Source: Bryum argenteum (lineage: Eukaryota; Streptophyta; Bryopsida; Bryales; Bryaceae). From it: a stretch of 64,000 nt of DNA. Below the pieces are notes generated by a model. The model ran no database searches, was not told the origin of the DNA, and worked only from the letters and a program-made list of their open reading frames with translations. The DNA is taken from assembly GCA_037043015.1 (NCBI GenBank), contig CM073321.1, positions 12,408,001-12,472,000 on the forward strand, given 5' to 3'. Below are positions 3,001 through 47,235 of this stretch, piece after piece. A program made the translations under genes and the position numbers. Numbering within the stretch: the first letter of the stretch is position 1; every line of letters starts with the position of its first letter.

Positions 3001-4115
3001 CTGCCCAGGTTGACTAATTCAATTTTCTCCTTGGCACCGTTAGTCCATCCCGTGACAACTTGGTCTTCAAGTGCTTTTGTTGCCGGGGTAGCATTTACTG
3101 TGATATCTTCTGTAAATTCCTCAGTAAAACGCGAGGGTATATCTAATGCTTCTTCCTGCGGTACAATGCCGGCCAAATGAATTTCGGCAACTGGGATCAA
3201 CGAGGGGTCAGCATGAAAGACTAAAGCTTCCTGTTCTGGGCTTAGCCCTCTGACCCAATTGGTGCCTGCTCGATTGCGGATTTGGTCAACTTTAGCCTTG
3301 GTAACACATCTGTTTACGGGATGGACGATTGTCCTGCCATGGTGGTGTAATCTAATTTGATTCGGGGCCCAATCATGCACGGCATTCATATTACGTAACC
3401 ATGGTCTACCAAGTATGATAGGGAAATTGGTAGTATCTGGCATGTCAATGACGACGAAGGTTGCTGGTGTTGATATGCCATGCGTGGTAATGGCTACAGT
3501 GGCTAGAATTCCTAAGGGTGTGACAGGGGCATTGTTGGCCATCCTTAGTATGAACTAAGCCATTTCTGGTGATGGGAATCCGAGCTGCCGACGCAGACCT
3601 TCACTCATATCGTTGACACCGGAGCCTCCATCTACTAAAACGTTAGACAGCTTGTGTGTGCCTAACCGTAAATGTATTACTGCAGCGTCAGGATCAATAG
3701 TGGTAGCATTGTTGTCTACAGTCTCCAATGCTGTCGATGCGTTGAGTAATGTTGTCTGTTGCAAGTATTTCTGTAATTCGGGACTAATTTTTAACAAACT
3801 AGTTAGTGTGATACTTACAGTTGTATTGTCCAGTACTTGCTGTAAATTGGCTCCTGATGGGGACTCCAAGTCTTGTTGAATTTGCTGTCAAATGTTGTGT
3901 AGACGCTCCCAATGTTGTTCTGGAAATGGTTTGCGATGTTCTACCACGTGTTCCGGTGTGGCGGCTTTAGACCTCGTGTTGACGGCGGCGGTAGAAATAG
4001 TAGAGATGTTAGTCTCGGTTCCATGAACCTCTGTCAACGTTACCCCCCCTCGTCGGTTTGGGGTGGGTCCATGGTTGTCCAATGGCGTCGTAGTGTTGGG
4101 GTTTGTTTCCGTCAT
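1..4115 (-). pseudogene. pol: Pol polyprotein (protease, RT, RNase H, integrase), disrupted
   Basis: Protease: LVDGGSGVN at about 3620 is the retropepsin active-site region, with the D-[ST]-G triad seen as DGG. Reverse transcriptase: the fingers/palm segment lies at 2843-2394 and the YLDD box at about 2363, separated by an in-frame TGA near 2386. RNase H at about 1930-1690 shows the HTDAS motif and a late DHHSL motif. Integrase has the zinc-binding HLHDG...H and CHAC elements (split by a frameshift near 1180-1190), then catalytic Asp in LDFVG and SDQGTHF. The Glu region is interrupted by TAG at 736-738. The frame then stays open to base 1, covering the integrase C-terminal part. Other in-frame stops are at about 3892, 3555, 2943 and 1683. 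No complete enzyme can be made. Confidence 0.9.
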
Positions 4116-4187
4116 GGGGCGGCTTTGGAACCAACGCTGCTTTAGAACAGGGCATTGACCTCGTCGATGATGTAGGGATCCACATTC

Positions 4188-5222
4188 TCAACAACCATCA
4201 CTTCTGCCTGGTTGGAACGCGTCGACATGGACTTCCTCGGTGTACATTGCTGCAGTGGTGGGTCGATGTCGTCTGGTGTCTTCGCTGCGGTTGTTGCCCG
4301 AAGCAAACCAACATCGTCCATTGTGAGCCTTTCCGCATGTCATGCACAGTGTCAACGTTATGCGGGCATCGTTCCGCTGTCTTTGACTCGGTAAAGGCAA
4401 CAGGGGAGCTTGGGTTTTGTTAAGCAGCCCAAGCTCTCTACTGATGTCATTGGCGGCTGTTAAGATATCGGGTAGGGTTTTTACCCCTCTGATGACAATA
4501 CCTTGTTGGATCCATGGCAACAACCCCTTTTTGAACCACTCGCATAAGTAGTCATCTGTTGGCCTTTGGTTCAGTTTATCAGCCAACTGTTTGAATCGAT
4601 CGTAGAAGGTGTCCACAGTTTCTCCCTTTTCTTGGGTAATATTTCCCAAAGCGCGGAGAATTTCAGAGGACATCTTAAGTTTGCAAAATTTCTGCAAGAA
4701 ACTTCTTTCCATATCTTCCCAGGTGGGGTTGGCATGTTCGGCTTCGAAGTCGACATACGAGTTGATATGGTTCCCTTGCAACGTAGTACCAAAGATACTC
4801 TGTAAGTCAGTAGTGGTAGAGACGCCATTAGTTCTGGCGATAACCTTAAAACGCCGGATATGCCAATCAGGGTCAGCATTGTCGTCAAACACCGGGTAGG
4901 GTATTTTGGGTAGCTTAATGAGCCTATCTCTTGCTCCTCCATCCATCGATGTAGCCACCGTTGGGTTTGCAGGAGGCACCGATGTTGACGACGAAGGCAT
5001 TGCTGCGATCCCTGGACTGGGTGTAGTAGCGGAAGTGGCCGTCCTTTGCAAATGCTGGTATTGGTGGCTAAGTATTTCCAACTTGGCATTGGTGGCGTAA
5101 TTTTTGGCAACAAGATCGGTCATTTGTTGCTTCATCCATTGTAAGAATTCCCTGGTGGCATCAGGGTCGTCAGTAAGTGAAACTGCTTCTGGTTCTTTGT
5201 CTTTCTGCCGCCATGTCGGCAT
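4188..5222 (-). CDS. gag: Gag polyprotein of Ty3/gypsy element
   Basis: This 344-residue frame encodes the particle-forming capsid and nucleocapsid protein. An N-terminal helical, Q-rich part (about residues 15-70) and a low-complexity A/S/P/T linker precede a retrotransposon gag region (about 100-250). That region has tryptophans typical of the family, for example around WEDMERSFLQKF and ERFKQL-like stretches. Near the C terminus lies a compact zinc knuckle, CMTCGKAHNGRC (C-x2-C-x3-H-x3-C). The start is the first ATG after the primer-binding site. The frame ends early in a segment that continues in another frame toward the protease, so a frameshift near 4205 probably separates gag from pol here. 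Codons read as stops downstream (about 4145 and 4105) fit C-to-T changes. Confidence 0.85.
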   Translation of the reverse strand: MPTWRQKDKEPEAVSLTDDPDATREFLQWMKQQMTDLVAKNYATNAKLEILSHQYQHLQRTATSATTPSPGIAAMPSSSTSVPPANPTVATSMDGGARDRLIKLPKIPYPVFDDNADPDWHIRRFKVIARTNGVSTTTDLQSIFGTTLQGNHINSYVDFEAEHANPTWEDMERSFLQKFCKLKMSSEILRALGNITQEKGETVDTFYDRFKQLADKLNQRPTDDYLCEWFKKGLLPWIQQGIVIRGVKTLPDILTAANDISRELGLLNKTQAPLLPLPSQRQRNDARITLTLCMTCGKAHNGRCWFASGNNRSEDTRRHRPTTAAMYTEEVHVDAFQPGRSDGC

Positions 5223-10200: not shown

Positions 10201-12319
10201 AAACGCAGCAGGCGTCCAAGAGAAGGGAAGAGTGGAGGGAGGTTAATTATATTGGCTGCCTGAGGGAGGGTGCCAATCTCCATCAATGACCAAAGAGATG
10301 GTTGCAAAAGTAAGTTACCGGTGGTGCATGGAGACAAAAATCAGCCATGAGCATGCTTTTGGGGGGGGGGATAGGGGCTATGACACATGAATTATAACAA
10401 GATTGGATGACACAAGAAAGATGTCCCTTATTACAATGTCTCGAAAACGATAACCCTCGGGCCATGACGAACAGGGTGGACACCGACTCTGAGAAAAATA
10501 CAAAGGTCTTCAAGAAGGGGGCCTGAGTGAATTGTATTGTGGTGTACCTTCCAGTATGGGAGTGCAAACAATATGCTCACACGCTTTACGCCGTGTAGCT
10601 TCACTGGATCGCCCTCTGAGTCCTGCACTCCGCCAGCACGTAACCAATCCTGGCGGGCTCTCCCTTGCGCCATCACCTCGGCACCGGACCGACGTTGAGG
10701 TGCATCACCGTGTTCTGGGTTGTTGTTGAAGGTGGCTCTTGCGCGTCTAAACCTATGGCCTTGCGGTAGAAACCTCCGGGATCCAAGGTACACCATCTTC
10801 TTTAGACAGCGAGAGTGCTCTGCAAACGTCTCCCCACCACAAACGAGACACGCTGCATAGCCTTTTACCGTTTGTCCAGCGATTAGGCCAAGTGCCGGGA
10901 AATCATGCACGCTCCAAATTAACATGGCTCTCAAGATAAATTGACGCTCTCGCACGGGCTTGCTCATATTAACCGCTGGAACACCGTCCCAAAGTGTAAG
11001 AAGATCACGTACCAGCGGCTTAAGGTACACGTCAATTGTCTCGGAGGTGGGAGCTTTTGGTCCGGGAATAAGAATGGACAAATTCAGGAAGAATTTCTTG
11101 GTACACAGCCAACCTGGAAAGTTGTAAATCGCTAAGAGGATAATCCATGTTGAATGTTTTGAGCTCTGGTTTCTATGAGGGCATACTCCATCTGCAATTA
11201 ATCCCCATCGCAAGCTAGAAGACAGGTCACGGAATTCCGGATACATGCGCGACACCTCCTGCCATTGGAAACTATCCGCAACGGAGCGCATCATCCTGGA
11301 TCCCTCCGTGACCCCTTCAAAGTGGTTGAGGAGTTCCGCAACTTTTGGGCAAGCATACAAACGTTTTAGCTTTGGAATGAGTGGAAAATATCTGGTGACG
11401 GCATACGGTACAGTCAAAGAATCTGGAATGTAGCGCGGGTGCTGGCAGCGAGGGCATTCCAGGAGTTTACCATTAGTGTCGCCCTCGTAGAGAACGTGCC
11501 CGTTTGGGCAGGAGTGGATGGGGTTATGCTCCAAGCCTAGCCTCCGTATCCTCCCCTTCAACTCGTAACATGTCATCGGCAGACTATTGCTTTCCGGTAG
11601 CAGGGTCCCAGCGAGGTAAGTTAGCAGTGCGGTAAGGAAGGCATCGGAGACGCCGTATACAGTCCCGAGTGTCATCAGCACGATGCCACTCTGCATGCGA
11701 CTCTCACGTGACCCGGCATATACAGGCTCCACACATTTCTCGAGTACATTTGCGAACTCCACATTGTGCTCGAATGCTTTGTTGTCTCGCTCCATCGGGA
11801 GCAGGTCCTCGTTCCTGAATTCTTCGGCTACCTCCCTCTGCAGGGAATCAGCCCTTCCAAACGCGTCGTATGCCATTTGGCGGGCTCGGACACCAGCATC
11901 TCCCTCATCTGAAGCCGTGGATTCTGAGTCAGCAAATTCGATGCCTTCGTCCAGGTCGACATCCGGATTCCTCACTGGGCCACGAAGGTTCCTCTCATCC
12001 ACGGTCTGTATCACACATATAGACAGACTTCTGAGTTTATGTATAGAGAGCGGACAACAAGCTGGATAGAGAAGTTAGTACATTGTTTCCATGGGCGCCT
12101 AGATGCACAACAAGTCCAGGAAAAACTTACCAGGACAGGGTGTGGTAGATATGGATCTCTACCGTACCGCCGGTGATGCCGGGTGACTGAAGCATTCCCT
12201 AAAATACGCCCGCCTCTGCACCTCCTACATCCACAAGGATACTCTGGAAGGCCTAGACGAGTAGCGATATTGCGCTTGATGTGGAACGCCGCGCCGAGTC
12301 GTCGTCGCCTCATCTTCAG
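7284..12319 (-). CDS. CACTA (En/Spm) transposase, TNP2-like, five exons
   Basis: My exon model is complement(7284-8085, 8628-9181, 9228-9525, 10548-12005, 12131-12319), with gt...ag at each junction. Exon 1 holds a transposase-associated cysteine cluster (YPCGCRRCRGG). Exon 2 is the TNP2 core, with zinc-ribbon-like CPNGH...CPRC, the LADG-like turn (LIADGV), and the PWLC-K-x-F...LIPGPK block and WSVHDFPALG stretch typical of CACTA transposases. Exon 3 contains the DVMHVEKN motif, exon 4 the DUF4218 region (around MVHLCIHLIEEL and WMYPFERYYKTLKG), and exon 5 the DUF4216 region (EWGFTMANFSR...DSFAFPSQCQQVFF). It should bind element ends and catalyse cut-and-paste transposition. The exon frames are largely open, so this copy is younger than the LTR element. 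The 10.5-9.5 kb intron is long; a missed exon is possible. Confidence 0.85.
8355..8382. repeat. A28 homopolymer in a CACTA intron
   Basis: An unbroken run of 28 A sits within the fourth intron of the CACTA transposase gene. Confidence 0.9.
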
Positions 12320-14167
12320 CACTGTGTGTTCCTACGAATTCCTATGGAATGTGAAGAGACAACAGGAGGGATTCACTCCATTCAGCCATACGCGTGATGT
12401 ACTAGTTGCAGCAACTAAAGTCCTCTGAACATAAACTAAGTGAAAGAGGACAAAAAAAGAAGAAGGTAATACTCTCAAAAAGGAAATAGATTCATCGTAA
12501 TCTCTTCGTAACAAAATAAAACTGTGAAATATTCCTGCATTCGGGAATAGTATTCTGGTTGAATCCAAGAGATTTACATGAATTTCCCCGGCTCCATTTA
12601 ACAGTTTTTGCATGCTTGTAAACGAAAGCTGACTTTTCCTCAATCTAGACCACAACTCACAATCAGTTTCTTGCTGTAGACGCTGCCATCTGGAGCCATT
12701 GTGAATCCAATAGATTGCCCACATCTATGTTTCAATCATGAAGGCATCCGTGTGATTACCAGAGTACCAGAGACACATGTGCATCGTGGACCCCATGCAC
12801 ATTCTGAGCGAATTGGTAATAGCAAATAACAAAACCTAGAAACACATTCTTAAACTATGAGAGCAAATAAAACCAAAATCTTTCAATAGTCCCTACAGTA
12901 GAAGTCAAAAACCAAGCGCTCCGCTCATAAAGTCCAGCGAGCGCAAAATTCCATCAGCAATCGTAGAGTAGCAGTTATGTTTTGTAACTTTCTCGAGACC
13001 CGATCACGATCAACAAGAACTTGACTTCATGCAACAAATAATTACCTCAGAGAACAAAACGTAGGGAGGGCAAAACGAACCACAGGCACATTCAGCTCCA
13101 CTGCCATACTAACATTCCTCACAAAACTCCTAAACACAAACAGCTCAGCAAATTCCACACCACACTTACTGGAGACTCGCCAACTAAGCAACTGACCGGA
13201 AAAGTTGAGATCAGAATCGAAGCCTTAGTTCGCATTCGGGGAAAAAACAAACACTCACTAGAAATGAGTCATAGGAAAGAAAACGGACACATCCGATCAA
13301 CCAATCGAACCTACAAAACTATAAAGCCAAAATTGCGAAAGAACAAGCATCGCTATTTCAGAAACTGATTACCAAAACTAATAAAAATCAGCAGCTCCAG
13401 GATCAAACACTCCAATCCATAGACTAATTGCGTTTTACAGAAACCTCATACATGAACCAAAATTGCTTGCAAAAATTCCGACACAGACATATTTACCACA
13501 AATGAGGCTCCTGGGGAAAAAAAAATAGACACTACATTCCGATCAATCAATCGACCCTACCAAACCAAAAAGCCGAAATTGCGACGCCATTTCACATCAC
13601 CGCAATTCAGAGATCGACTACCATAAACTTAAGGAAAATAATCAGAAGCTCCCACTCCAATCCACAAACTAAATGGGTTCCATTGCAAAAACCTCAAACC
13701 TGAACCGAAAATGCTCGCAAAAAATTGCGAAAACACTCATCGCCATTTCTCAACACCGGAATTCAGAAGAAGGATACCAAGACAAGACTAGACACGGGAA
13801 ATGAAGAGCTCCAGGATCAATCCACAGAGTGAGAGGGTTTTAAGGTAGAAACCTCATACCTGGACCAAAAAGGCTCACAAAAAAAGGCTCTGAAATGGAA
13901 TGCGCAAGGGAAGGCCGTGAGATCAGCACGAGTCGGTCGCTGGCGTCCTCGCCATAGCCACTGCGATTGGAGTGTTTAGAGAGGTAGGAGAAGAGACCAA
14001 GGGAAGTGGCGTGGACGAAGGGGATCTTCGAGGAAGGATTGGCAGGAGCGGGAACGGGGACAGGCACGGGCTGGGCCGGCCCGGGTCGGGTCGGTCCGAG
14101 GGCGGGGGTGGGCCGGTGGGGGGCCCACGGTGGGGATGATGACCACGTGAAATGGTGAGTGACCTAA
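12320..14167. other. Upstream region of the CACTA gene with imperfect repeats
   Basis: No protein-coding frame is recognisable. From about 13200 to 13880 three imperfect copies of a 170-250-bp unit recur. They carry shared phrases such as CCGATCAAYCAATCGA, AAAATTGCGA, CACTCCAATCCA and ACCTCATACMTG. This is probably the subterminal or 5' untranslated region of the CACTA element, which in this superfamily carries repeated binding motifs. A short GC-rich patch lies at 14050-14130. I could not find a terminal TAGTG that would define the element's end. Confidence 0.5.
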
Positions 14168-28330: not shown

Positions 28331-29800
28331 TCAAACATTGAAATTTTACACCTTGCTTTGAAAGAAGGCAGTTTTGAGAGTTTCTGGCAGTTTTGAGGCC
28401 TTTTGACTTTAGGGGTTAACATGAAACAACGACAAGCATGCCACATTTCACAAAAAGAGGCAGCCACGTCAACATAAAGATTCTATATAATATTTACAAG
28501 TTTATTTTTTGTCTTTTATCTACAACTCCTATATATATTTTGTATTTTATATGGACTTTGTTTCCAAATGCTATATCCGTATATTATATTTGTATACATA
28601 TCGGTATGCCCATCCAACGGCTCCTAACTTTTTGTTTGGGGGGGGGGATTTTTTTCCCACATCCAACGGCTTCCGATTTGTAGAGCTGTCATGTGTCAGG
28701 AGCACAAGGGTATCATTCTGAGGTCGATTGTATGATCTATTCCAATGGAGAGAACGGTAATAAATCAATGTGACCAGACAATTTGTACATCGCATTGAAT
28801 ACACGCCCATCATTCTAGTTATGACGCAGAAAAGGCGGCGCCCCTCAAGTACGCCATGCCTGTAGATGTACGCTAAACAACATGGCGCTGTTCATCTTGA
28901 TTTCACCAGTTTGATCTGTCATCCCCTTGGCGCTGCACTGATCTTGGCGTCCATGGATCCGCAACCATTCCTGACCAGCGTAGATCGCCGTGCACTTATT
29001 CGCACGATTCCCGTTCATCCCTACCGTCGGACTGCATCCGGTATCGCCATGCTAGCATGAAGCTGCCCAAAAAGTTTCCCCTCGTCAATTGCCTCCCCGA
29101 GTGCCTCGTTTCCCCCATTAGGTTACTCCGACCCATCAATCACCTCTCTCCTCTAATTTCCATGTTAACTAGTGCAATTGTAGCATATGTTTCCTTTGCA
29201 CCTCCTTGACCTCTGCATGTTGTAGCCCCAGTGGTCCATGATCCCTACGTCCCAGTCCTGTTCAGATTACAGAAGGAACGCCGTCATCGCCACGACCTAA
29301 TTCCTACCCTTTATGCCAGTCTTCACTTCGCTGATCATCTTAGGGATAATCAACATACTCCTCGCCACAATTCTAGCACATTAGTAAAATTGTGAGGCTC
29401 TGGTGGGTATAGTTGAAGTCCACCGCGTGAAGGTATGTTGGACACACAAGTCAATCATTGTTTTTGGCCTTGCATATCATAATGTTTAAGTTCGGAATGC
29501 ATTGCCTAACACTACGTAACTAGCGCAGTCTTTGCTCCATGCTTGAAATGCAACTAATCACTCCAGTCTTAAGTAGCAATAACGCCTCTTGGAAGCTTGT
29601 TTTTAGTCCAGCGGACACTGTGAATTTTTTTTGCAGTCATCTCCACTCGCTGAAGTCAGCAGCCCTTTACTAGAAGAGTGTCTTATTAATCTAGATGACT
29701 CCCCGCCCGAAGCCGAAGCGGACCCCTGAGGCATGGGCTTTGAAGCCCCCGTTGAAGGTGACAAATTGCAACGCAAGTAAATGTAGTACTACTCCACATT
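28331..29800. other. Gene-free stretch
   Basis: No convincing coding frame. A G9 run lies at about 28639. From about 28850 the base composition rises toward that of the following gene, so unrecognised 5' exons or a promoter could lie at 28850-29800. Confidence 0.4.
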
Positions 29801-33245: not shown

Positions 33246-34785
33246 ATGTGTCAAAGCACCGTAGTACATTGCTCTCCATTCATCTCCAGGTACCCTGAAC
33301 TCACCGTGCTCATTCTGCTGATTCCAGTCGGTGTTTTATCAATTAATTCTCACCTGCAGTCCATTGTAATATTTATTGAATCATGACCGGTTACCGAAAC
33401 TGACTCAATTTGCGTAGTTCTAATCAGACTTGGCGGCCATGAGGATTGACTGTCCAATCCTCTCCAGACTGCTCGTGATGCTCTTCGGGTGTATCAAATT
33501 CGCCATGACTTCTCAGAGACTCATATCCACTCCCACTCTTCTCGGCACATCCTCACACCTCCAGGAATGACCAACATAGATGGTACATGAATTAATCAGT
33601 TCTGAAGTGTATTTAGATCCGGTAGAGTCCATTTCGGAAATGTTTGTATAATTTTCCCATTACCTGCACTCCATGTAGTGCTGGCTCATGGTAAAATTTG
33701 GAAATCAGACATGCACTTTTAATACAAGTAGGAGACTTGCCTCTTTTATGAACGATATACTGATCTTGCATTTACAGCTTCATATTCTGTAGAAATTTCA
33801 ATTTCGGTCTCCTGTAGCGACACCCATGTATGCATAATGCGATGAGATACGGCGATGTACATCCAACCGGTAATCCCCGCACGACCTTCGAACATGATCA
33901 CTTAAACCCTAAACCGCACCCCTATAACATACCCTAAAATCCATGCTTGATTTGGTACCTGTTCGTACCACACCGCCACCCCAGATGTAACACGTAGCTC
34001 TACTTCATTCGCTGTCGGCCGATAGAGTGACCGCAATATTCCCGTACCACCGACCTCCAACAGAATTCAAACACATGCCTCCCTCTGAGAACCTAGGATC
34101 ACCCGGGAAACACAATGACCACATCACACATGTCTCCATGGGGTTTGATGGGCTGTTATCCGCTAATGCCTCAAGAGACGCTTCCTTACGTCTTCGCGAG
34201 AACTCTAACCCTAATTGTAGCGCCTTCCACGTCCGAACATCTGTCTCTCTTACAGAACATCGCTACCCTTATACACGTAGGAGCCCGCCATGTCTTTCGG
34301 CGTCGCCATGTCACGGCCACCTTGTCGACACAGTCATCGATACCCTCCACACGGCTCATCGGACTTCACACGTCACTCGTCCGCGTCAGACGCCATAGTG
34401 TCACCCATGTTTCAGTGATCTCCCACGTCGATGACCTACGTGGACGTCCTCACAATAAATCAACAGAAAAGTCTTCCTCACGTCCGAATCAAGACATTCA
34501 ATCAAGTGACTTCTCTTCGCTATCACTTGATTCACTGTGTGTTTTTTTTGTAGTGGATGTAGAGAGAAGACTGGCCATGGCCTTGTATTGATAATGAAAA
34601 ATGAGTACAAACAGTTTGCTCCTAATCCTCTCTATCAATGCATGTCAAGAAAAACCAGTGTCTACTCTGCTGCAACTACACTCTTAAGTAGCCGATGTCG
34701 TCCGAAGTCCCTGCTGCCGTTCGGTGGCCCTATCCTCCCGCCTTGATCGCGACTCCCCTTTTGGCAACGTTGGCTTCGGTAACAA
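33246..34785. other. Gene-free stretch
   Basis: No recognised coding frame. Frames at 34027-34590 are Thr/Ser/His-rich and lack motifs. Scattered CCCTAA-like words at 33905-33945 are too few to be telomeric. Confidence 0.4.
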
Positions 34786-36282
34786 TGAGCATGACACAAT
34801 CATCATCAACGATGGCCGTAAGAAGCACGTCGTGAATGAACCAGAGAATGTCGTACTGCCAGTCTCGTGGTCAGAGCATGATGTATCTAACAGATTCTTG
34901 GTGGACGAGCTCCTCCCTTGGACTCAACGTCTACATCAAAGCCGCGGTCAGGGCTTGTGTCTTTCCGTAGGGAAGACAACATTAGGCGTAGAATGCTCTC
35001 TGAAGAACTCGATACTTCAAAATACGAAGAGCTTATTAATGGCGTAGAGGCTTCTAGGAAGCTAGTGCTTGATTAGGCTAGTTAACCAAGATTGGTCTCA
35101 CCACACAAGATTCAAATTTGTCATGTATATTGTGTAGATTATAATAAATGATTTCAATATTAATGTCTCCTCTCGGAATGATGTCATTTCAGAGCGGGCT
35201 TGTGTCCGACCCTTTATTTTATCGTAGTATTTGATGGTGCTAGTTCTCTCAGCATTGATTTAACTCGAGTCGAGTTGATTTGGCTATATCATATTGCATA
35301 TCATCCTTGTTGATGATTCCTCTAAAATAAATTCGTATCCAGTTGTCCAATTCCGTCTCGGTTTTGGACAATGATTTTGATTTCCGTTCTTGCCTTTCGC
35401 TGATTCGATTTTGGACTACGGACGATACTCAATTTCGCAGAGCGGAATGGGCCACATAATTTACTCAAGAACTCTTCGCACAATCAACTATGGACTACTC
35501 GACAATGGCAATTGATGATGGTGTTGTGGATAGTCCTCCTTTTCGCGGTAAGCAACCACACTCTGCATGTTCTCCTTCCCCGCTGAAGAACCGTACCATA
35601 ATAGACGAATCAAGTCGAGGTGGCGCTCCGCAAAGAAAGCTTTACGATGATTCTGAGTTAGTTGAGGATGCACTTCCGGTACAGGTATGACATACTTGAA
35701 GCAGTTCATTTATGAGTTTTTCTTAGTTTTTAACTTCAATCGTAGTTTGATTTACTTACATTTCTCAATCTCTTTTCATGCACTTAGGCGACAACTGCAG
35801 CAGTCGTGCCCATACCGGTCATTTTTGAGTCCCCGGCTCTTTGTGTATCACCTCATAAGGCATCGTCGCTGAAAATATCTCGTGGTGCGTCGACACATTC
35901 TCTCTCTATGCCTTGTCCATTGAAGTCTTTGGAGTCAGCAGCAGAACTTGGAGACTGCGGGACGGAACTAATGGGGCCACCTATTCCGTCTGTTGCCCAC
36001 GCTGTTGATACCTCGCGTTTGTGCTTCCGTACTATGCGCCCGCCATTACACGAGGGTCACCGCCAGACTCAGTCACACGATGGATTTCAGTCCAGAGTTA
36101 GTTGTCCTCCAGTTTGCGATGCATTGGAGCAACGGATTTTGAAGCTTCAGCGACGTGAAAATTCAAGTTCGCGTTTGTCACCATACACAGGCTACAGTCG
36201 TGGACCAAAAGTGTGGAAGGCACTAGCTGAAATTCGAAGCCGTTCGCACTTGGTATACGGCAACAGTCTTGATATGATTTAG
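34786..36282 (+). pseudogene. FCP1-like HAD phosphatase gene, 5'-truncated copy 1
   Basis: Only the C-terminal part of the HAD domain is present, with TIIINDGRKKHV in place of the usual acidic DDS motif and the downstream SWSEHDVSNRFLVDELLPW. It is followed by the exon with DDGVVDSPPFRGK (about 35490-35685) and the terminal exon (35797-36282) ending GNSLDMI. The duplication break removed the N-terminal catalytic motif, so it cannot be an enzyme. Compared with copy 2, its last exon is intact, whereas copy 2 has a one-base insertion. An AACTCGAGTCGAGTT palindrome sits between exons. Confidence 0.7.
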
Positions 36283-36627
36283 AGTATATTGATCGGTATG
36301 GTTCTCCATGGATAGCCCACATTCAACACCATACTGTATTGTTCTATTGGTATAGAAATATCGTATTTACCATCGTACATTCGGATCATTCATATGTAAC
36401 TAGAGCTCACATATATATATGGATGAGCATATTTCCTTTGACGTGGTCAATTCGTGTATACAATGTCTATAAATAAACATACATTCATGTATATTCCAGT
36501 CTGGCATACAATTATTCATCCATCTATATCTACTTTATACCTTTTTTTACAGACTATTTGTATTTTTATCATTTTTTCTGGGCCTCAACAATACTCTCAT
36601 TATTGAGGGATACTCTCAAAATAATGA
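34786..36627 (+). repeat. 1.84-kb segmental duplication, copy 1
   Basis: Nearly identical in the same orientation to 44255-46119. Similarity starts at GAGCATGACAC and ends at ATACTCTCAAAATAATGA. Differences are few: scattered substitutions, a rearranged stretch at 34975-35000 against 44430-44490, and one inserted A in copy 2. It includes one AACTCGAGTCGAGTT palindrome (35262). Confidence 0.95.
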
Positions 36628-37619
36628 TTATGGTGTTTGTATGTAGATGGCCATGGGGGTCCAGTTTCCATTCAGCCACGGTATGCTAGGTAATCGAGAT
36701 TTTGGTTTGATCTGATTGTTCCGATTTAGACACGGTATGCTAGTCACCTATATTCTCTAGCTTGCAGTTAGAAGAAGAAAACCGTTGCCATCTGTCAGGG
36801 CGTGCTCAAAATGTGGTTGACTTGATGATGCCCGTTGCCTCTTGTGTTGGTCTTCTTTCAGTGCAATTTTTCTCTAGTCGTTTTGCATCAATGATGTTGA
36901 GTCTTTGCCTCTTGCTTTTTGTGTTGCCTTCTTAGAGGTTTTACAAATCTTATGGCGTATTTCTCTTCGTTTCAAGAGATATTATGGTTGTTTCTAGTTC
37001 TGGTACGCAATCACGTTTGATCCATACATGAAGTACTTAGCACGAGCCACTCTTGTATGTGTGTTTGGCTAATTAGTCAATGTCTCAAAGTTTTGCAATT
37101 TGATTTCAGTGGCGTTACATTCAGATCTCCTGTCTGCTTTTATCGAAGTATATTGGTCAATTTGGTCTTGTATAAATAGGCTGTAAATACGACAATGATT
37201 ACCAGCACAATTGATCACTTGCAAGAGCCTAGATCCTTGATATTGTTTGCTTATTCTAATGATGTTAATCTGGATTTTTGTTTTTCTTAGCATGATCAGT
37301 TGTAAATGGTCTCATATGTGGTGAATTTAGGACTTTTCTGCATGGATTGTTGATGTCGTTCTACTGGATTGCAGCGAATTTTGTTTTAATGCAATATTGA
37401 TCAGATTCGACACTGATCAAATTTGAATGCAATTTTGTTCCTTCAGGATCAGGACAAAGCTGAGCTTTGTTGAATTGCGTGCGGTATTCACATAGTAAAA
37501 GAGAAGCAGATCTATCAATGGGTGAGTAAACACTATTTTTTACTCGTTCAATCTGAAGTTGTTTTAGCATAATCGTTGGCAGTTCAACTAGACCGTAGTT
37601 GAATCTCACACACAACAGA
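36628..37619. other. Gene-free stretch between duplication and palindrome array
   Basis: AT-rich, with no coding frame recognised. The phrase CACGGTATGCTAG is repeated at about 36676 and 36729. Confidence 0.45.
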
Positions 37620-38715
37620 GAGAATTTAACTCGACCCGAGTTGAATCTCTAATCTAGTAATTTCTTAATACTTAAAGTAGCATTATAAGTAGCGACGTTT
37701 AACTCATATATCTCCGAATAGGATAAAATTAGGACATATGAACAATTCAACTCGACTCGAGTTGAATTAGAGTAGCGCCCTACGTTAGCAACTCTAATAT
37801 TGATTGAACTCGAGTTGAGTTGAAACGGACCGACTATGTAAAGTTGTCCGAGCAATTACAAAAGCAAAATAAAATTTAACTCGAATCGAGTTGAAGTGAT
37901 CTTGCATTATAATAATGTCAATACAGTCGAGTAAGTCTCACATACATATTCAACTCAACTTGAGTCCGAGTAGCGGCATGAGTGACTATCTAGAACAATA
38001 ATTCAACTCGAGTCGAGTTGAAACAGGTTCACAAATTAAAGTTGTAAAAGCAGCATAAAAACAATCATAACATTTAACTCGGCTCGAGTTAAGATGGACA
38101 AGCATATTAATAATATTGATTGACTTCAGTTAGTCTTAGTGGACCAATTCAACTCGAATCGAGTTGAATCAGTTTACCTCCATACGTGAGCAACAATAAT
38201 TATAATTCAACTCGAGTCGAGGTGAAACGGACTATCTAGGTAGAGTGGTTCGAGTAGTTTAAAAAGACCAAAACATTTAACTCGACTCGAGTTAAAGTGA
38301 ATTAGCGTCGTAATAATGTTGATCGAAGGCAATAACTCACAGTAAACATATTCAACTCGATTCGAGTTGAATCAAAGTACCGCTTACGTGAGCAACCATG
38401 AAAAATTTTAACTCGAATTGAGTTGAAAAGGATAGACATTCGTCAGTTGTTCGGGCAGTTCAGAAAGAAACTTAACATTCAACTCGACTCGAGTTGAATA
38501 ACATTCTAGTAACTATAACCTAACAAAGATTCTAATATAGCCTCCGTATGTCAACAATCGAGTTGAAAGTATCTAAGCTCTGTATGTAGAGACCACAAAC
38601 CGCCATGAAGGAAAGATTCAACTCGAGTCGAGTTGAATCCAACTTCCTTGCTAACGATAATCGTAGACTAACAGAGACAAATAGAATGCTATTTCAACTT
38701 GACTCGAGTTGAATA
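37620..38715. repeat. Regularly spaced palindrome array, TCAACTCGANTCGAGTTGA family
   Basis: About sixteen near-perfect palindromes start at roughly 37624, 37744, 37803, 37874, 37949, 37999, 38070, 38145, 38203, 38273, 38347, 38404, 38476, 38555 (half), 38614 and 38691. Apart from one 120-bp gap, start-to-start spacing is 50-79 bp, averaging about 70, and the DNA between is not obviously repeated. The variable positions are mainly the central N and the outer T/A. The array ends about 50 bp before the first coding exon of the ParB-like gene. It could be a promoter-proximal binding array or the subterminal region of a transposon. Confidence 0.95.
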
Positions 38716-40232
38716 CTAAACCTTGCAATACGTATGGATTAATACTCATTTGGCCCCTCTGTCTCATCAGGAGAAACCAATCCAAAGGACAGGCTCTCAG
38801 CATTCTTCAAGCCCTATGTTCCTGAAGGGGACAACGAAGTCGCCGATCCAGATATATTTGGCGACATGTGGGTGCACACAGAGCCTACGGATGTCGAATG
38901 GTGGAGTATGCTCCTCACACCGCACACGGACAAGTTGGCTGTAGTCACCAAGTACAGGGGAGCAGAGTGCAACCTTCCTGTCAATTTGGAGGAGAACATC
39001 ATCGATGTCGTCGTCCACAACACGCACTGGATTTGCGCGACGTGCATCGTCGACGACCCCAATCAAGACACGGCTCTGGACCTGGACTACAACTTCACTT
39101 ACATGATCGATACAACAAAAATCGAATTCGACATTTGGGCTCATGTTGAGAGTATAAGAAATACTCCGGACGAACCCTTGGCGAAAAATGTCGAACAACA
39201 CATTCGCGAGTTTCGATTCACAACCGAACTCGGTAACCAGCAGCCACCAAGTATTCTCGCCCCTCGTCTCCGATCACTTATCACTGCCATGGTGAACTTC
39301 AAGGCAAAGCTGCAACGCAAGAAGATCCAAATGTAGCCCGTTCGTCTGATGCAGGAAGTAAGCATGCATAGCGCCAGCCACGAGTCGATTCTATATCAGA
39401 TTCCTGAGACGACGGGAACAAGAAGGCGCAAGGGGAATCCGTCCCAAACATAGCGGGGGCCGACACTAAAGAAGATCCAATTAGTCACGACAAAGAAGTC
39501 GATCTTGGCCGATCCCACTGAGATTGAACGGGCGAGCTTAGTGTCGGCCTTGACGGAAGTATCCATCGTCAATGTAGAGAAAGTTGTCGATTACAAGGAG
39601 TCCATGAATGCCTTCAAGAACTACTGGGCTCTTTGCCAGGACTCTTACATCTTCGGCTCAGATGTCACTTACGAGATTCCAATCAAGCGTCTCTTTACCC
39701 CCCCCCCCCGCGGAACTGAACATCCGGAACCTTGAGCAGGAAAAAGTAAGGCACACAATGCATTTCATTATTGAGATGTGCGATCAGGAGAAGTAGAACA
39801 CCCTCTGCGTCTTCCTGAAAAATAAGCTCGTAACAGGGTCAACCACTTCATGAATACAAACCACAGGGACCCTTGGGAGGAGATACAAGACGGAGAGTTC
39901 TACATGGTCAATGGACAACATTGCTTCGAGGCCTCCAAGCAGTTGCAAAACAGGCTAGATGTGGATGTGAAGATCAGGGATGCGATTAAGGCCTGGGACT
40001 GCTTCGTTGTATGGAATGAAGATAAGTCCATCATTCAAAGAATCTCCACGTTCTACAACAGGGTCAACCTCTTCATGAATACAAATCCAATGTGGGCGAC
40101 AAACATCATCGGGGCGCGAGAGCTGTGGAATAGCCTCGGTAGACCGCAGAATCCAAAGGAGGCTACTGAGGTTGGCAGGACCGTCACACAGAAGGCTCCA
40201 AGGGCAAGAAACCAGCAAAGGACGCATTCAAC

Positions 40233-40377
40233 GTATGTGCAATTCCAATCAACTCGATTCGAGTTGAATAGTGTCCTACACTACTTAAGATGATATTTTG
40301 GTTCCATTCCTGCTGTAACCTATTTCAACTCGACTCGAGTTAAATATCTAACTCAATATCGTACTCGTTTGATACAG
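40233..40377 (+). other. Probable intron carrying two palindromes
   Basis: GTATGTGC at 40233 and an acceptor GATACAG ending at 40377 interrupt the coding frame. Two copies of the AACTCGANTCGAGTT palindrome lie inside (40247 and 40324). Phase across the junction is not perfect, perhaps because of decay. Confidence 0.55.
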
Positions 40378-41737
40378 GAGTTCATGGAAGCTCTCAGGCT
40401 TAGATTTGCTCTCATTGACATGAAGGGCGCCTAGAAAGCAGTGACAGCAAGCAACGCAGCCAGAGAAAAGCTCAACATCCAGAATGAGCTTAAAATCATT
40501 TGTGCTCCAAATGATGTCTACAAGGTCTGGCTTGAGCTTATCTCATCCGCATCCCAAGGGGAGCTCATCGACCCCGACACAGGAAGGAAGATGAAGGAGT
40601 TGGGAAAGTCGAAGCCTGAACGTGGACACATCACCAGGGAGTTCTTCAAATGGATCGGCAACATAAGCTACCCACAGCTCAAGCGATTAGCCGAGCATAT
40701 GGTGAACAGACCAAACCCAAAACGGCGATACACATATCCCAAAGTCACATTGAAGCAGATGAAAGGTGTGTTTGTAGATTGCTACAGCTCTTACGACTGG
40801 CTGCAGCGCTGCAAGAGGAAGACCATCGTAAAGCGCGTGATTCACAGCATGCGCCCTGACTTAATGCTGTTCAGCACAAGTGGGGACTTCAGGAAGGAGA
40901 GCTGGAAGAAATTCAAGACCAATTTCAAGATAGCGCCAGCTACACTGAACGTTCTGATCACAAATCCCGGGGAGTCCTTCTTTACGTTGGCGAAATTCCC
41001 CAGCAATAAGAACAAGTCCGTGGAGCAACTCTCGCCGTATGCAGCAAAGTTCTTCAGAGTCTTCCTCGCCAACAAGGGGAAGTTTCAGGTTCCAAGAGGC
41101 GAGACAAACTTCAAGGCCTACAGCCTAGAGGACGATGTTCTGGGGGAATGGCACAATGACACTTGGAACGAATTATCTTCTTAGAGAATCAAGGTCCGAA
41201 TAATGGACTTCCGTAATCTCCCCGGAGCACAGGAGGTATCAGCTTCATCGAGCTCGTCAACAAGCTCGTACTTTTGCAACGTCCTCCAAGTCCTTAAGTC
41301 TATCACAGACCCGGTGGTAACTGAAATCTTTGTTTGGGTTTGGATCTGCGGATGTAGGGATGCTGAGGCAAAGATCAAGAATCACCTCGATAGTTGCAAG
41401 TTCGGAAACAACTACAAGATAGAGTATGCCGAATATGTTCCGGCTCCACATGAGCAACTCGAGGACCAAACCCTGTCGACCAAGAAGGCCAAGGATCATG
41501 TCCGAATCCTCTTCTTGTTTCAAAAATTGCAGAAGCTGAAGATTTTAAACCTCCCGAAGTTCTTCCCGGCCCCCGACACTCCACAATTCAACATCTGCGG
41601 GAGATACAACAAACTCGAGTACCTTTAATACGGTATTGAGGATGGAGTTCTACCTGAAGCTACTTGATCTCTTCTGCAAGGAAGGGGATGCGATCCTCAG
41701 TGTTTTTGGAGGCGGGAAGCTCTACTGTGCGGCCTCG

Positions 41738-42145
41738 GTAAGGACATCCAATATATCAACTCGATTCGAGTTGAATAGTTCGTCATGACTCTGTTGCTTT
41801 CTAAGCTCGTTGTAATTAACTGGAATCGAGTTCAGTGTCCACTTCAGTGTCCAGGGATCATTTCACACTAACTTGGATTCTATTCAACTCGACTCGAGTT
41901 GAATGGATTATTAAGTGTGCTACAAAACCATGTTATCTCATGCGTTCTTAAGTTTAACTTGACTCGAGTTGAATGTATTAATTGGTGGCGCTTAGAGTTC
42001 ATATTTGGTATTCAACTCGAGTCGAGATGAATGCGCACAACAGAGTAGTATTGTAGTGCTTTCACACGCCAGCTTCATTTCAACTCGATTCGAGTTAAAC
42101 GTACAAATCATTGATGTTGTCATCTCCTGCTATGTCCACTCGTAG
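41738..42145 (+). other. Probable intron carrying five or six palindromes
   Basis: Donor G|GTAAGG at 41738 and acceptor CTCGTAG at 42145. The palindrome motif occurs at about 41757, 41884, 41953, 42010 and 42079, with a degenerate copy near 41818. Spacing is again about 57-70 bp where copies are adjacent. Coding similarity to copy B resumes on either side. Confidence 0.6.
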
Positions 42146-43124
42146 ATGTGTTTGCTGATGAATTACACGATCAGCTCCAGCGACGAGCACGACGAAGTCG
42201 TCAAACTTTCGATGGAGGTCTTCAACTTGGATCGTTGAGATTTTGAAGGTGGGTACCGGATTGGTGAGGCTTCTGGATCCAGGGAGAGACTGGAACCACC
42301 ACCACTCCCCATGAAGGCTGAGAAGGGGAAGGCAAAGAGGAAAGGCAGGGCAGTTGAGTTACCACTTGACGTGAATGACCCAAGACCGATAGTAATCGGG
42401 TCAAGTGACGACGATGACGATCCTAACCAAGATGTTGAGGCCTACGGATCTTAACTCCCGATAACGCCCCAAATTAGACGAGGCTCATCTTCTCATCTTC
42501 CTCATCCCCAGGAACAAGGCTTCTCGGACAGCTCTCTTCCGGCTTCCACGCCATCTCCTCAGAAGAGGAGAAGGGAGTCACTATCCGTTGACGCTCTAAT
42601 GGAAAGGCTCGTCAGAATGGAGGAGGAGGCGCAGGCGCGACAAAGGGCCGAAGTTGAAGCAATGCTTGCTCGAGAGCGCGAGGAACGCAGACTCCAGAGA
42701 CTGGAGGATGAGCAACGATGGAGCGTAATGATGCATGAGGTCTTCGCGAGAATACCTGGGGTAGTAGTCCAAGCAACTTCGCACCTCAAGGCAAAGCCGC
42801 TCCACTCGCTCGATCTAAGTCATAGTGAACCTCTGCTTCTGACCCACAAAGCTACTCAGTCTTCCGATAGCGGTGCAGCTCGACATGCATCTCCTCGACG
42901 TTCCCTCCAAGGCACGCCTTTTCAGTCGATTGCAGCTCCCCACCTGCGGGCAACATCGATCAAGTTGTTTCTAGGGATCAAGGCCCATCAAGTAGCTCCA
43001 CACCATCGGACCCAGTCGATCTGGAAAGGAAGACCATGGATGAGGAAGAGCAGATAGGGACACAAGATGAGACTCTCAATCCGAACGTTTTTGAATCAGG
43101 TTGAACTCCACGATCTAGTCTTTC

Positions 43125-43145
43125 ATTTAACTCGACTCGAGTTGA
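43125..43145. repeat. Single palindrome between the two module genes
   Basis: TTTAACTCGACTCGAGTTGA occurs in the gap between the coiled-coil end of the ParB-like gene and the first HAD-gene exon. Confidence 0.9.
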
Positions 43146-43276
43146 ACTTCTCCTTCGATTGATGGAAGATTGCCTGTAGAAGCCTTCGAGAGTTGTTGTT
43201 AGCCTAGTATATATATCCCCCTAGGACAGTTTTGTTAGATTGGAATTGGTGTTCATCGTGTAAATACTTTTTGTAA

Positions 43277-45773
43277 ATGTCGCTCATTTTTGAACGCAGA
43301 GTTTGGAATACAATCATATTTTCTTACACATTTTCTCCCTCTGATTTCTACGCAGGCTCTATTGATTTGCGAGGTGTTCCGAATGTTTGCCTGTCTCATG
43401 ACGTCCCCCTTGTGGAAGACACTAGTCCTTTGAGTCCGTTTTATGGTGAGCCAAGTAACACGCCGCAAGATGATCACAATGAAGGTCACACTCGGGATTC
43501 AATCCTGCTCTAGGTTCACATTCCTCTTCCATCCTCGACCGCTGTACGAGATTCACAAATAGCTAAAACTCAATCAGAGACGCCGGTAAGCTGCTCCTTT
43601 TCCAAAATCTCATTCAATCCTTTCTTTATTAGTTCGGTGTGATCGCATTGTTTGGATTTGGGATTTCTTAGTGTTATAGAAATGGTCAGTCTTGAAATGT
43701 GGCAGTGCAGTACTTAACTGTATACACATTTTTCTGCCCCCCTTCTGAACAGGAGATGAGTCATTCCCACAATCCGGTAGTTGTAGCCACGGAGGATATC
43801 CCTCGTTCTATTCCTTCAAGGGTGCCATGCAAGTGGCTCAATGTCATCCTGGACTTGAACGGTATCCTCTGTGTCTGCAAGGAGAAGAGATTCATGCCAA
43901 AGGACCAAGTTTACAACATGGTCGCGAGTGCACATTCCTCTGTCCTACCCGCTCCAATTGGTCCCAAGGCTGTTTTCGTCGGCCCTTCTGCCTTGATTTC
44001 CTTCGTGAGTTGACTGAAGTTGCATACGTCTCCGTATGGAGTTCAATGGTTCATGGGACCACGAAGTCCATATGTGACTACTTGTTCCGGGGTGTGCCAT
44101 CCCCGTGCCTTGTTTGGGAGCAGAACTCATGTGAGGTTGTCAAGGTTCGTGGACCGCGGAATAAGTTGTCCAACTTCAAGTTGAAGGGGACTAATAAGGA
44201 TCTCTTCCTCAAACCACTGATATGCTTTTCAATGGTCTAAACTCAAAGTCTAGTGAGCATGACACGATCATCATCGACGATAGCCGTGAGAAGCACGTCG
44301 TGAATGAACCAGAGAATGTCGTATTGCCAGTCTCGTGGTCAGAGCATGATGTATCTAACAGATTCTTGGTGGACGAGCTCCTCCCTTGGATTCAACGTCT
44401 ACATCAAAGCCGCGGTCAGGGCTTGTTGTCTTTTTGTAGGGCGTAGAATGCTCTCTGAAGAGCTCGATACATTGGGCGTAGAATGCTCTCTGAAGAGCTC
44501 GATACTTCAAAATACGAAGAGCTTATTAATGGCGTAGAGGCTTCTAGGAAGCTAGTGCTTGATTAGGCTAGTTAACCAAGATTGGTCTCACCACACAAGA
44601 TTCAAATTTGTCATGTATATTGTGTAGATTATAATAAATGATTTCAATATTAATGTCTCCTCTCGGAATGATGTCATTTCAGAGCGGGCTTGTGTCCGAC
44701 CCTTTATTTTATCGTAGTATTTGATGGTGCTAGTTCTCTCAGCATTGATTTAACTCGAGTCGAGTTGATTTGGCTATATCATATTGCATATCATCCTTGT
44801 TGATGATTCCTCTAAAATAAATTCGTATCCAGTTGTCCAATTCCGTCTCGGTTTTGGACAATGATTTTGATTTCCGTTGCGCAGCTTCTGCTGATTCGAT
44901 TTTGGACTACGGACGATACTCAATTTCGCAGAGTGGAATGGGCCACATAATTTACTCAGCAGCTACTGCACAATCAACTATGGACTACTCGACAATGGCA
45001 ATTGATGATGGTGTTGTGGATAGTCCTCCTTTTCGCGGTAAGCAACCACACTCTGCATGTTCTCCTTCCCCGCTGAAGAACCGTACCATAATAGACGAAT
45101 CAAGTCGAGGTGGCGCTCCGCAAAGAAAGCTTTACGATGATTCTGAGTTAGTTGAGGATGCACTTCCGTTACAGGTATGACATACTTGAAGCAGTTCATT
45201 TATGAGTTTTTCTTAGTTTTTAACTTCAATCGTAGTTTGATTTACTTACATTTCTCAATCTCTTTTCATGCACTTAGGCGACAACTGCAGCAGTCGTGCC
45301 CATACCGGTCATTTTTGAGTCCCCGGCTCTTTGTGTATCACCTCATAAGGCATCGTCGCTGAAAATATCTCGTGGTGCGTCGACACATTCTCTCTCTATG
45401 CCTTGTCCATTGAAGTCTTTGGAGTCAGCAGCAGAACTTGGAGACTGCGGGACGGAACTAATGGGGCCACCTATTCCGTCTGTTGCCCACGCTGTTGATA
45501 CCTCGCGTTTGTGCTTCCGTACTATGCGCCCGCCATTACACGAGGGTCACCGCCAAGACTCAGTCACACGATGGATTTCAGTCCAGAGTTAGTTGTCCTC
45601 CAGTTTGCGATGCATTGGAGCAACGGATTTTGAAGCTTCAGCGACGTGAAAATTCAAGTTCGCGTTTGTCACCATACACAGGCTACAGTCGTGGACCAAA
45701 AGTGTGGAAGGCACTAGCTGAAATTCGAAGCCGTTCGCACTTGGTATACGGCAACAGTCTTGATATGATTTAG
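43277..45773 (+). pseudogene. FCP1-like HAD phosphatase gene (copy 2)
   Basis: Exons are about 43353-43584, 43753-44450, 44833-45174 and 45278-45773. The second exon carries the FCP1/SCP-type HAD phosphatase domain: WLNVILDLNGILC (motif I), VSVWSSM (motif II), IIIDDSREKH (motif III) and SWSEHDVSNRFLVDELLPW. These enzymes dephosphorylate Ser/Thr, classically in RNA polymerase II tails. Motif I reads DLNG rather than the usual DxDx[TV], so the general acid Asp is Asn. The third exon has DDGVVDSPPFRGK, probably a disordered linker. Frameshifts near 43980 and 44220, TAG near 43513, and an inserted A at about 45555 (relative to copy 1) inactivate it. An AACTCGAGTCGAGTT palindrome lies between exons (44750). 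It directly follows the methyltransferase-like gene, as in copy B. Confidence 0.7.
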
Positions 45774-46119
45774 AGTATATTGATCGGTATGGTTCTCCAT
45801 GGATAGCCCACATTCAACACCATACTGTATTGTTCTATTGGTATAGAAATATCGTATTTACCATCGTACATTCGGATCATTCATATGTAACTAGAGCTCA
45901 CATATATATATGGATGAGCATATTTCCTTTGACGTGGTCAATTCGTGTATACAATGTCTATAAATAAACATACATTCATGTATATTCCAGTCTGGCATAC
46001 AATTATTCATCCATCTATATCTACTTTATACCTTTTTTTACAGACTATTTGTATTTTTATCATTTTTTCTGGGCCTCAACAATACTCTCATTATTGAGGG
46101 ATACTCTCAAAATAATGAA
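44255..46119 (+). repeat. 1.86-kb segmental duplication, copy 2
   Basis: Direct duplicate of 34786-36627, offset about 9.47-9.49 kb. It includes a local 34-bp tandem duplication (GCGTAGAATGCTCTCTGAAG at 44441 and 44476) absent from copy 1. Copy 2 is continuous with an upstream HAD exon, so it is probably the source arrangement. Confidence 0.95.
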
Positions 46120-47235
46120 TTTAATGTTCAAAGAATGAATAGGCATTCTAAACTTAAATAAAATATTTCAAAAGCATTTGAATACCAAATTTTAATAAAA
46201 CATTGTAGTAAAAAATAAAAGAAATTGCGAAGGAAAAGTAAACGAAGTATTTTTCAAAATAAAAATTCAATAAATTGACATGGCCATTTTATGCAAATGA
46301 GCATGGTCATGTGCATGGCCGTGTACATGGGCATGGCCATCCGCATGACCATGCTCATGTGTAGTAATGATCAGGGTTGTCTTTTGTAACACAGTCGAAC
46401 GTTAGACGGACAAGACATTTCAAACAGACACACAGCCTCAGAATGTCCAAAAGAATCTACAGAATCTTTTCCTTCGGAAAAATTACCCTTGATTTACCCT
46501 GTCGACGTTGCATCCTGCATGGTTGCCCAATCGAGTGTACAACTTAGCAATACGATGACGCTATTTGAGCGACTACGCCACGTAGGACTGGAACTCGTCC
46601 TGGACCGGCAGTCGCCTCGTCCACTGCGATTGTGGGCAATCGACTGTCGCCCTTATTTGACCAACTGCCGCCATTAGGCGACCGGCGGTCTCCTTGGACC
46701 GACGGTTGCCCTAGACCTACGAACGCCCTAAACTGGCAGTCGGCCTAGATCCGCGGTCGCCTAGGATTGTCTTAGATTGGCGGCTGCCCCCGATTAGAAT
46801 AATTCATTTTGCTTTCCAACATTACGCAAAAATTCTTCCGTTCACGTTATCCAAAGGAAAAACTCAAGCATTAAGATGAAACAAATTACAACAATCCACA
46901 AATCCCCTGAAGACAAGGCTAACATCAACCATGAGATCTTAAACTTGTGGAACAAATAATGTGGTGACATACATGTGTGACTAGTGTGAAAAACGAACAT
47001 AATCAAAAGAGTTGCAAAATTCATGAAAACTGGAACAATATGTCAAAAAGTGGATTGTATGTATTGCAAGTATAGTTTGTGAATTACATGGCTGAATCAG
47101 CACTCATTGATGTGAGATGATCATCACTAGGAGCCTATAACTTGCATGAAGAAATACTGATATTGTATACTAATTACGGTCCTCTCTAAATACACACTGT
47201 GGTGGAAGCATATAATATGGTTTTGCCGTCAAGCG
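46120..47235. other. Gene-free stretch with CATGGCC and CCGGTCGCC clusters
   Basis: At 46278-46360 CATGGCC/GGCCATG words alternate in both orientations. At about 46590-46790 variants of GACCGCCGGTCGCC and its complement recur (clear copy GGCGACCGGCGGTC at 46677). No coding frame is recognised. Confidence 0.6.

Follow-up and report, generated by a model that had tools for sequence, protein, structure and literature searches.

The window analysed here comprises 64,000 nt of contig CM073321.1 (C1 below, 44.09 Mb) of the moss Bryum argenteum, positions 12,408,001 to 12,472,000 of the forward strand. Judged from its sequence, the locus holds an incomplete and damaged copy of a 17-kb DNA transposon bounded by inverted ends, family F1, which is also found on C1 as copy A (C1:8157776-8174588, 16,813 bp) and copy B (C1:10035976-10053291, 17,316 bp). 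By alignment to these two copies, positions 36806–46128 (+ strand) are the right half of an F1 copy with mutated final right-end bases, and positions 34784–36637 (+ strand) are the right-terminal fragment of a second one, which carries a palindrome at 35259 and an inverted-repeat end at 36612–36637. The 168 bases between the two pieces (36638–36805) matched neither of them in the alignments. We also considered the 1.85-kb repeat formed by 34786–36627 and 44254–46118 as a pair of retrotransposon LTRs; this was rejected, since both fragments have the terminus of the DNA transposon in common and are therefore two right ends. Inspection by eye of the 40 scored of 129 candidate right ends revealed no pair on one strand <12 kb apart other than the window's own.

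The inverted ends of copies A and B read AACACCATATTCATTATTTTGAGAGT and are perfect over 26 bp (A) and 22 bp (B). Both copies, the two in which both ends were read together, are flanked by 4-bp target duplications (TACA/TACA for A, ATAT/ATAT for B). Four-base target site duplications, terminal inverted repeats and a size that can exceed 15 kb are given for the Sola superfamily in the accessible text of PMC10741241, and all three are matched by F1. The likeness to Sola lies in ends, target duplication and size. The left half of the element carries a leftward gene matching Pfam DUF7869 (E 2.4e-36 in copy B), a putative transposase. Divergent from it, the right half carries a rightward ParB-like gene. 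Tandem repeats of ∼215 bp lie between the two genes (copy A, C1:8163314-8164033), with a higher unit count in copy B. Near the right end of copy A is a NIF/FCP1-like phosphatase domain (L006:3164-4036; PF03031, E 2.3e-15), of which a frame remnant, recognised from the copy A frame, is left at 43696–44240 (+ strand) of the window; such a domain seems unusual as cargo of a DNA transposon.

The model of the ParB-like gene (+ strand throughout) is a prediction based on conservation between copies. Exon 1 contributes the first coding bases, ATGG (37518–37521), and the donor that follows (ATGG/GTGAGT, 37518–37527) is kept in six of nine aligned copies; ATGGGTGAGT was found in the window copy (W), A, B, L045, L046 and L050. 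The acceptor, a CAG ending at 38770, is kept in eight of the nine, four of which read CAG/GAG. Spliced in this way, the reading M-G-E-T-N-P continues into the already known exon of the gene. The predicted intron 1 (37522–38770) thus has splice sites conserved between copies, and the palindrome array, which the initial annotation had placed directly upstream of the ParB-like gene, lies instead within it. Exon 2 (38771–40232) encodes the N-terminal part and the ParB-like region, with a weak DUF6551 match; its frame is broken in the window copy, where the ParB-like region is 59% identical to that of copy A. Intron 2 (40233–40377, GTATGT..ACAG by reading of the sequence) is followed by exon 3 (40378–41740, right limit approximate), a conserved region of unknown fold defined by frame and copy comparison (C1:12448339-12449640) and interrupted by a stop codon at 41182–41184 in the window copy. 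Exon 4 (42239–43057, limits approximate, from the reading frame) is of low complexity and coiled-coil-like.

Scanning the window for TTCAACTCGANTCGAGTTGAA located 16 palindromes between 37583 and 38713, 15 of them with ≤4 mismatches and one (37949) with 5; with the centre base left free, six of the 16 had no mismatch and three had one. Their start-to-start steps are 42, 121, 58, 71, 74, 53, 71, 75, 58, 70, 75, 56, 71, 139 and 76 bp, and the 139-bp gap contains a half site at 38556–38568. When the whole window was shuffled three times by a first-order Markov model, no site at ≤5 mismatches appeared (1, 5 and 1 at ≤6), so the series of about sixteen regularly spaced palindromes first reported for this locus is real. 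The spacers, described there as unique, non-repeated DNA, are instead related to one another: 37752–38296 matches 37950–38498 at 69% over 554 columns, which indicates that a unit of ∼200 bp with three palindromes was tandemly duplicated and that the spacers have since decayed. CRISPR arrays consist of regularly spaced, palindromic and near-identical repeats with unrelated spacers. Of the CRISPR-like geometry that had been noted, the regular spacing of palindromic repeats stands; identity with CRISPR was rejected, as the repeats have diverged, the spacers are interrelated, and the array sits in an intron of a transposon gene in a plant nuclear genome.

The palindromes are not confined to intron 1. 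Two lie within intron 2 (40248 and 40324), six in intron 3, the non-coding stretch after exon 3 (41755–42099, first to last start 41755–42079; that at 41815 has 5 mismatches), and single ones at 43126–43146 and, ∼1.4 kb from the right end, at 44749–44769. The second gene of the element has its own array. In F1 copy A, 9 sites precede the DUF7869 gene (copy A sequence 28521–29219) and 21 lie in or after the ParB-like gene; in copy B, the sites start ∼60 bp ahead of the first methionine in the DUF7869 frame. Similarly, the element of a second family (F2) in A has 20 sites of the F2 word before DUF7869 (11716–12660) and 18 before the ParB-like gene (3289–4373), and that in B has 13 and 9. Both genes are therefore preceded by arrays in the two families, F1 and F2, where both were read. 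Since the identical word also precedes the DUF7869 gene, the word belongs to the element and not to the ParB-like gene alone, and a word that changes from family to family in both of two unrelated flanks is what would be expected from a shared trans-acting reader.

Given a putative transposase gene that is itself preceded by the array, the palindromes could be internal transposase sites of the subterminal or enhancer type, at which an excision complex assembles. Single sites do come closer to the right end, with distances of 3.0 kb for copy A and 1.4 kb for the window, but the arrays of copy A lie 3.7–4.5 kb from the left end and, in the case of the large right array, 7.4–8.4 kb from the right end, and they track gene 5′ ends and introns rather than termini. 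We consider this reading unlikely. The same positions are compatible with captured host transcription-factor sites that act as promoter elements and intronic enhancers, as plant enhancers are often located in the first intron or at the 5′ end of a gene. Against a host factor, however, both arrays of one element have one word, and families residing in one nucleus have different words at equivalent positions, which makes this explanation rather improbable.

Globally, the search of 258.84 Mb in 25 contigs found 2,552 sites for the 19-base pattern TCRACTCGANTCGAGTYGA at ≤2 mismatches, compared with 54 for the reversed pattern, and 11,049 sites for the word of a third family (F3), compared with none for its reversed control. 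A motif scattered over the genome with no tie to this gene family would have spoken against the suggestion of the initial annotation that the palindromes could be binding sites of the neighbouring ParB-like protein. What we found is that, among the matches listed, which include 84 distinct exact F1 sites, all of them within the first 10.71 Mb of C1, 80 of the 84 lie ≤12 kb from a listed family exon, as compared with 2.3% of random positions. The 84 sites form 12 clusters, 10 of which have a listed F1 exon ≤1.7 kb away (89 of 1,138 exon candidates were scored), and the remaining two, of three sites and one site, have no listed exon nearby. All 28 loci examined beside the gene carried sites (2–27 per locus) assignable to one of three word classes. 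Three of these loci were reached via the motif (the window, A and B), two adjoin these (A_F2 and B_F2), and 23 were selected by protein similarity alone. The superfamily is large: the loose and overlapping candidate sets comprise 1,138 matches for the F1 exon (89 scored), 968 for F2 (90 scored) and 680 for F3 (109 scored), and the equally loose set for DUF7869 comprises 1,810 (150 scored).

We compared the palindromes with their spacers in aligned copies. Columns within sites showed higher similarity than the remaining columns in 36 of 36 copy pairs; as the aligner may use the sites as anchors in distant pairs, we rely on the close ones. In the pair of copy A and L045, 256 of 260 palindrome positions agree (98%), as compared with 651 of 807 spacer positions (81%; Fisher p 5e-16). 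The exon 2 stretch of this pair, the sole one tested against an exon, is 92% identical over 1,495 columns and thus also below the palindromes. The same tendency was seen between copies A and B (255/260 in palindromes, 760/810 in spacers; p 0.006) and between the window and A (248/284 and 514/780; p 8e-13). An ordinary satellite drifting along with its host element would account for the partly tandem build of the arrays, with units of ∼200 bp in the window, 53, 105 and 158 bp in L036, 30 bp in L044 and 104 bp in L040. It would not account for the contrast between palindromes and spacers in the A–L045 pair, nor for the recurrence of the same word as single sites in other introns and as a second array elsewhere in the element, and we give this explanation next to no credence.

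The type of substitution within the sites bears on whether they are read as DNA or as RNA. If the gene model is correct, the palindromes are transcribed, and each could fold into a 9-bp stem with a 3-nt loop; they might then be hairpins in introns and leaders that serve splicing or small RNAs. Among 87 sites of L045–L050, 14 of 17 two-sided changes were complementary, as a stem would require, eight of them at position 3. One-sided changes were far more common, however (105 as compared with 17), and the bases that flank the centre, which would form the loop, are conserved. The excess of one-sided changes and the centre base, which is free in most site sets, fit DNA half-sites rather than an RNA stem, and we regard RNA hairpins as very improbable. 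The CpG of each half site was among the weaker positions in L045–L050. On balance, the pattern suggests DNA half-sites read by a dimer, together with CpG decay in old copies.

Word classes were assigned to loci by the majority word, and extended classes by the flanks. TTCAACTCGANTCGAGTTGAA is the word of nine F1 loci and TTTAGGTNGCTGCCTGCTAAA that of five F2 loci, where it occurs in 30-bp steps in A and L044. TTTAGCTCGANTCGAGCTAAA is the word of four F3 loci (L030–L033), six further loci (L034–L039) and two more (L062–L063), and these families differ in symmetric flanks (CAG..CTG, GCCCA..TGGGC and AAG..). One 21-bp core with different symmetric flanks implies that the recognised word may exceed 21 bp. 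L040 has a degraded core with 6 sites and L041 has 2 sites in all. Minority words occur at five loci (three F3-like sites each in A_F2 and B_F2, two sites in L043 and one each in L045 and L046). We placed the classes on a protein tree of 27 of the 28 loci, L050 (an 85-aa segment) being left out. The three word classes required 2 changes, the minimum, whereas 200 label shuffles required at least 8 (mean 11.3); the six extended classes required 5, again the minimum. Eight of 24 inner branches of this tree are well supported (starred), so that support is short overall, and a long-branch warning applies, while the family groups themselves sit on starred forks. Judging from this tree, the word changes in step with the protein family, and the agreement is one of family specificity that is explicable by common descent of whole elements. 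As such descent alone suffices for it, the agreement between the two arrays of an element and the conservation of the sites are the stronger arguments.

Exon 2 of the ParB-like gene encodes a stretch, QHxVxA(S/A)K..W..xVVW, which is conserved in seven aligned sequences and resembles a ParB motif by eye. Profile searches did not bear this out beyond sub-threshold signals: PHROG 1033 ('ParB-like partition protein') matched two of five scanned proteins at E 0.016 and 0.075 and DUF6551 was at E 0.034 and 0.2, while Pfam ParB_N (PF02195) gave nothing over the cut-off in the whole genome, its one match (E 1.49) lying away from the listed copies, and no ParB family was listed in Pfam and NCBIfam scans of the element proteins. 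Membership of the protein in the ParB family is thus weak. The best NCBIfam row, Csx13-like at E 0.0053, was below the cut-off and is taken as chance. A profile search of solved structures returned one row at E 0.51 in one run and none in another, phage records gave just three rows at E 6, and 131 pattern matches in viral contigs contained no relatives. Single-sequence structure prediction of the window frame had a mean pLDDT of 36.7, too poor for a structure search.

In bacteria, a ParB gene commonly stands beside clustered palindromes, parS, that serve replicon segregation. The ParB-like region adjoining clustered palindromes recalls this arrangement, but F1 has no significant ParB_N match, is a chromosomal transposon and not a replicon, and has thousands of sites; identity with bacterial parS was rejected. 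A eukaryotic parS-like system, in which the ParB-like protein would load at 5′ arrays, spread or cluster, mark the element as self and shield it from silencing, with divergence of the palindromes separating the families, seems doubtful to us.

A closer parallel to the layout is found in algae. Sola1-1_Ec32 of Ectocarpus (21.5 kb) and related algal transposons carry an accessory gene combining a ParB-like region with a DNA methyltransferase, and the authors suggest that such accessory proteins bind and modify their own transposon (PMC12477816, citing Iyer 2011 and Petroll 2025). As in F1, Sola1-1_Ec32 is a giant DNA transposon with the accessory gene, including its ParB-like region, on the strand opposite the transposase; the accessible text of PMC12477816 describes no palindromic target array for elements of this type. 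At the end of exon 3, a GG stretch resembles, by pattern, motif I of N6/N4 DNA methyltransferases, whereas a DPPY-type catalytic motif was not found, D-F-R or N-L-R standing by eye at the expected place, and Pfam and structure-profile scans of the element proteins gave no methyltransferase match. The methyltransferase part of F1 is therefore alike by pattern only and differs from that of the algal element in its lack of a recognisable DPPY-type motif. The layout equals that of the algal elements, and we take the ParB-like gene as a probable member of the ParB-methyltransferase accessory class, with a methyltransferase part that is probably inactive.

The arrays have their nearest counterpart in Arabidopsis VANDAL21/Hi, as far as the accessible text of PMC5735166 describes it. 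VANC21 binds a 9-base word at which methylation is lost; the word occurs upstream of VANA21 and within introns of both VANB21 and VANC21, the tandem repeats that hold it change in concert, and VANC6 acts on words other than those of VANC21. Both systems are multi-gene DNA transposons with arrays of short words in introns and upstream regions, tandem growth and family-specific words. Indeed, arrays of family-specific words within the introns of element genes and upstream of them, the VANC-type feature, are found here. The differences are a 9-base word in one orientation and another protein in VANDAL21, as compared with a 21-bp palindrome and DUF7869 and ParB-like genes in F1, and that VANC binding was shown in Arabidopsis, whereas the moss arrays are candidate sites.

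This VANDAL21-like anatomy favours self-recognition encoded by the element, the likeliest candidate for the reader being its ParB-like product. We regard it as likely that the palindromes are sites of an element-encoded protein. That the ParB-like product is the protein that reads the word is slightly favoured, and we infer the DUF7869 product as second choice. In the mechanism we propose, a protein of the element, with the ParB-like product as first candidate, would bind the palindromes as a dimer and so mark the element's own DNA; the bound protein might then keep the promoters of the element active against host silencing, or otherwise control its own genes, as VANC does for VANDAL. Anti-silencing or activation as the purpose is a tentative suggestion that could well be wrong. 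Taken as a whole, the explanation of the array as dimer-type candidate sites of a transposon-encoded protein that controls its own element appears to us reasonably probable. The family-specific words further suggest that each transposon family may make a protein that recognises its own DNA.

We found no report of candidate target arrays for such transposon proteins in the openly licensed literature at the level of titles and abstracts, and openly licensed papers yielded nothing on DUF7869 or on a ParB domain with palindromes in moss transposons. The arrays are concrete candidate targets for ParB-methyltransferase proteins, numbering in the thousands per genome and spread over several families that differ in their words, and these family-specific words make protein–DNA specificity and its evolution directly testable. 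If the proposal is true, plant transposons would have arrived at VANC-like self-recognition a second time, from a seemingly unrelated source, and a prokaryotic-type DNA-binding module would be working in a eukaryotic element.

Finally, the chromosome that harbours the window has an uneven gene content. The genome has 90 chlorophyll a/b-binding matches, as expected of a green plant or alga; for one of these proteins the best solved chains were 9vfj_2 and then 7xqp and 8htu, the last two being moss structures. None of the 90 and only one of 62 tubulin matches (below the cut-off and with stops) fell on C1, but the contig held 79 of the 96 F1 exon matches listed and 33 of the 40 right-end matches scored. 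C1 is thus poor in genes and rich in transposons, and may be a sex or B chromosome.
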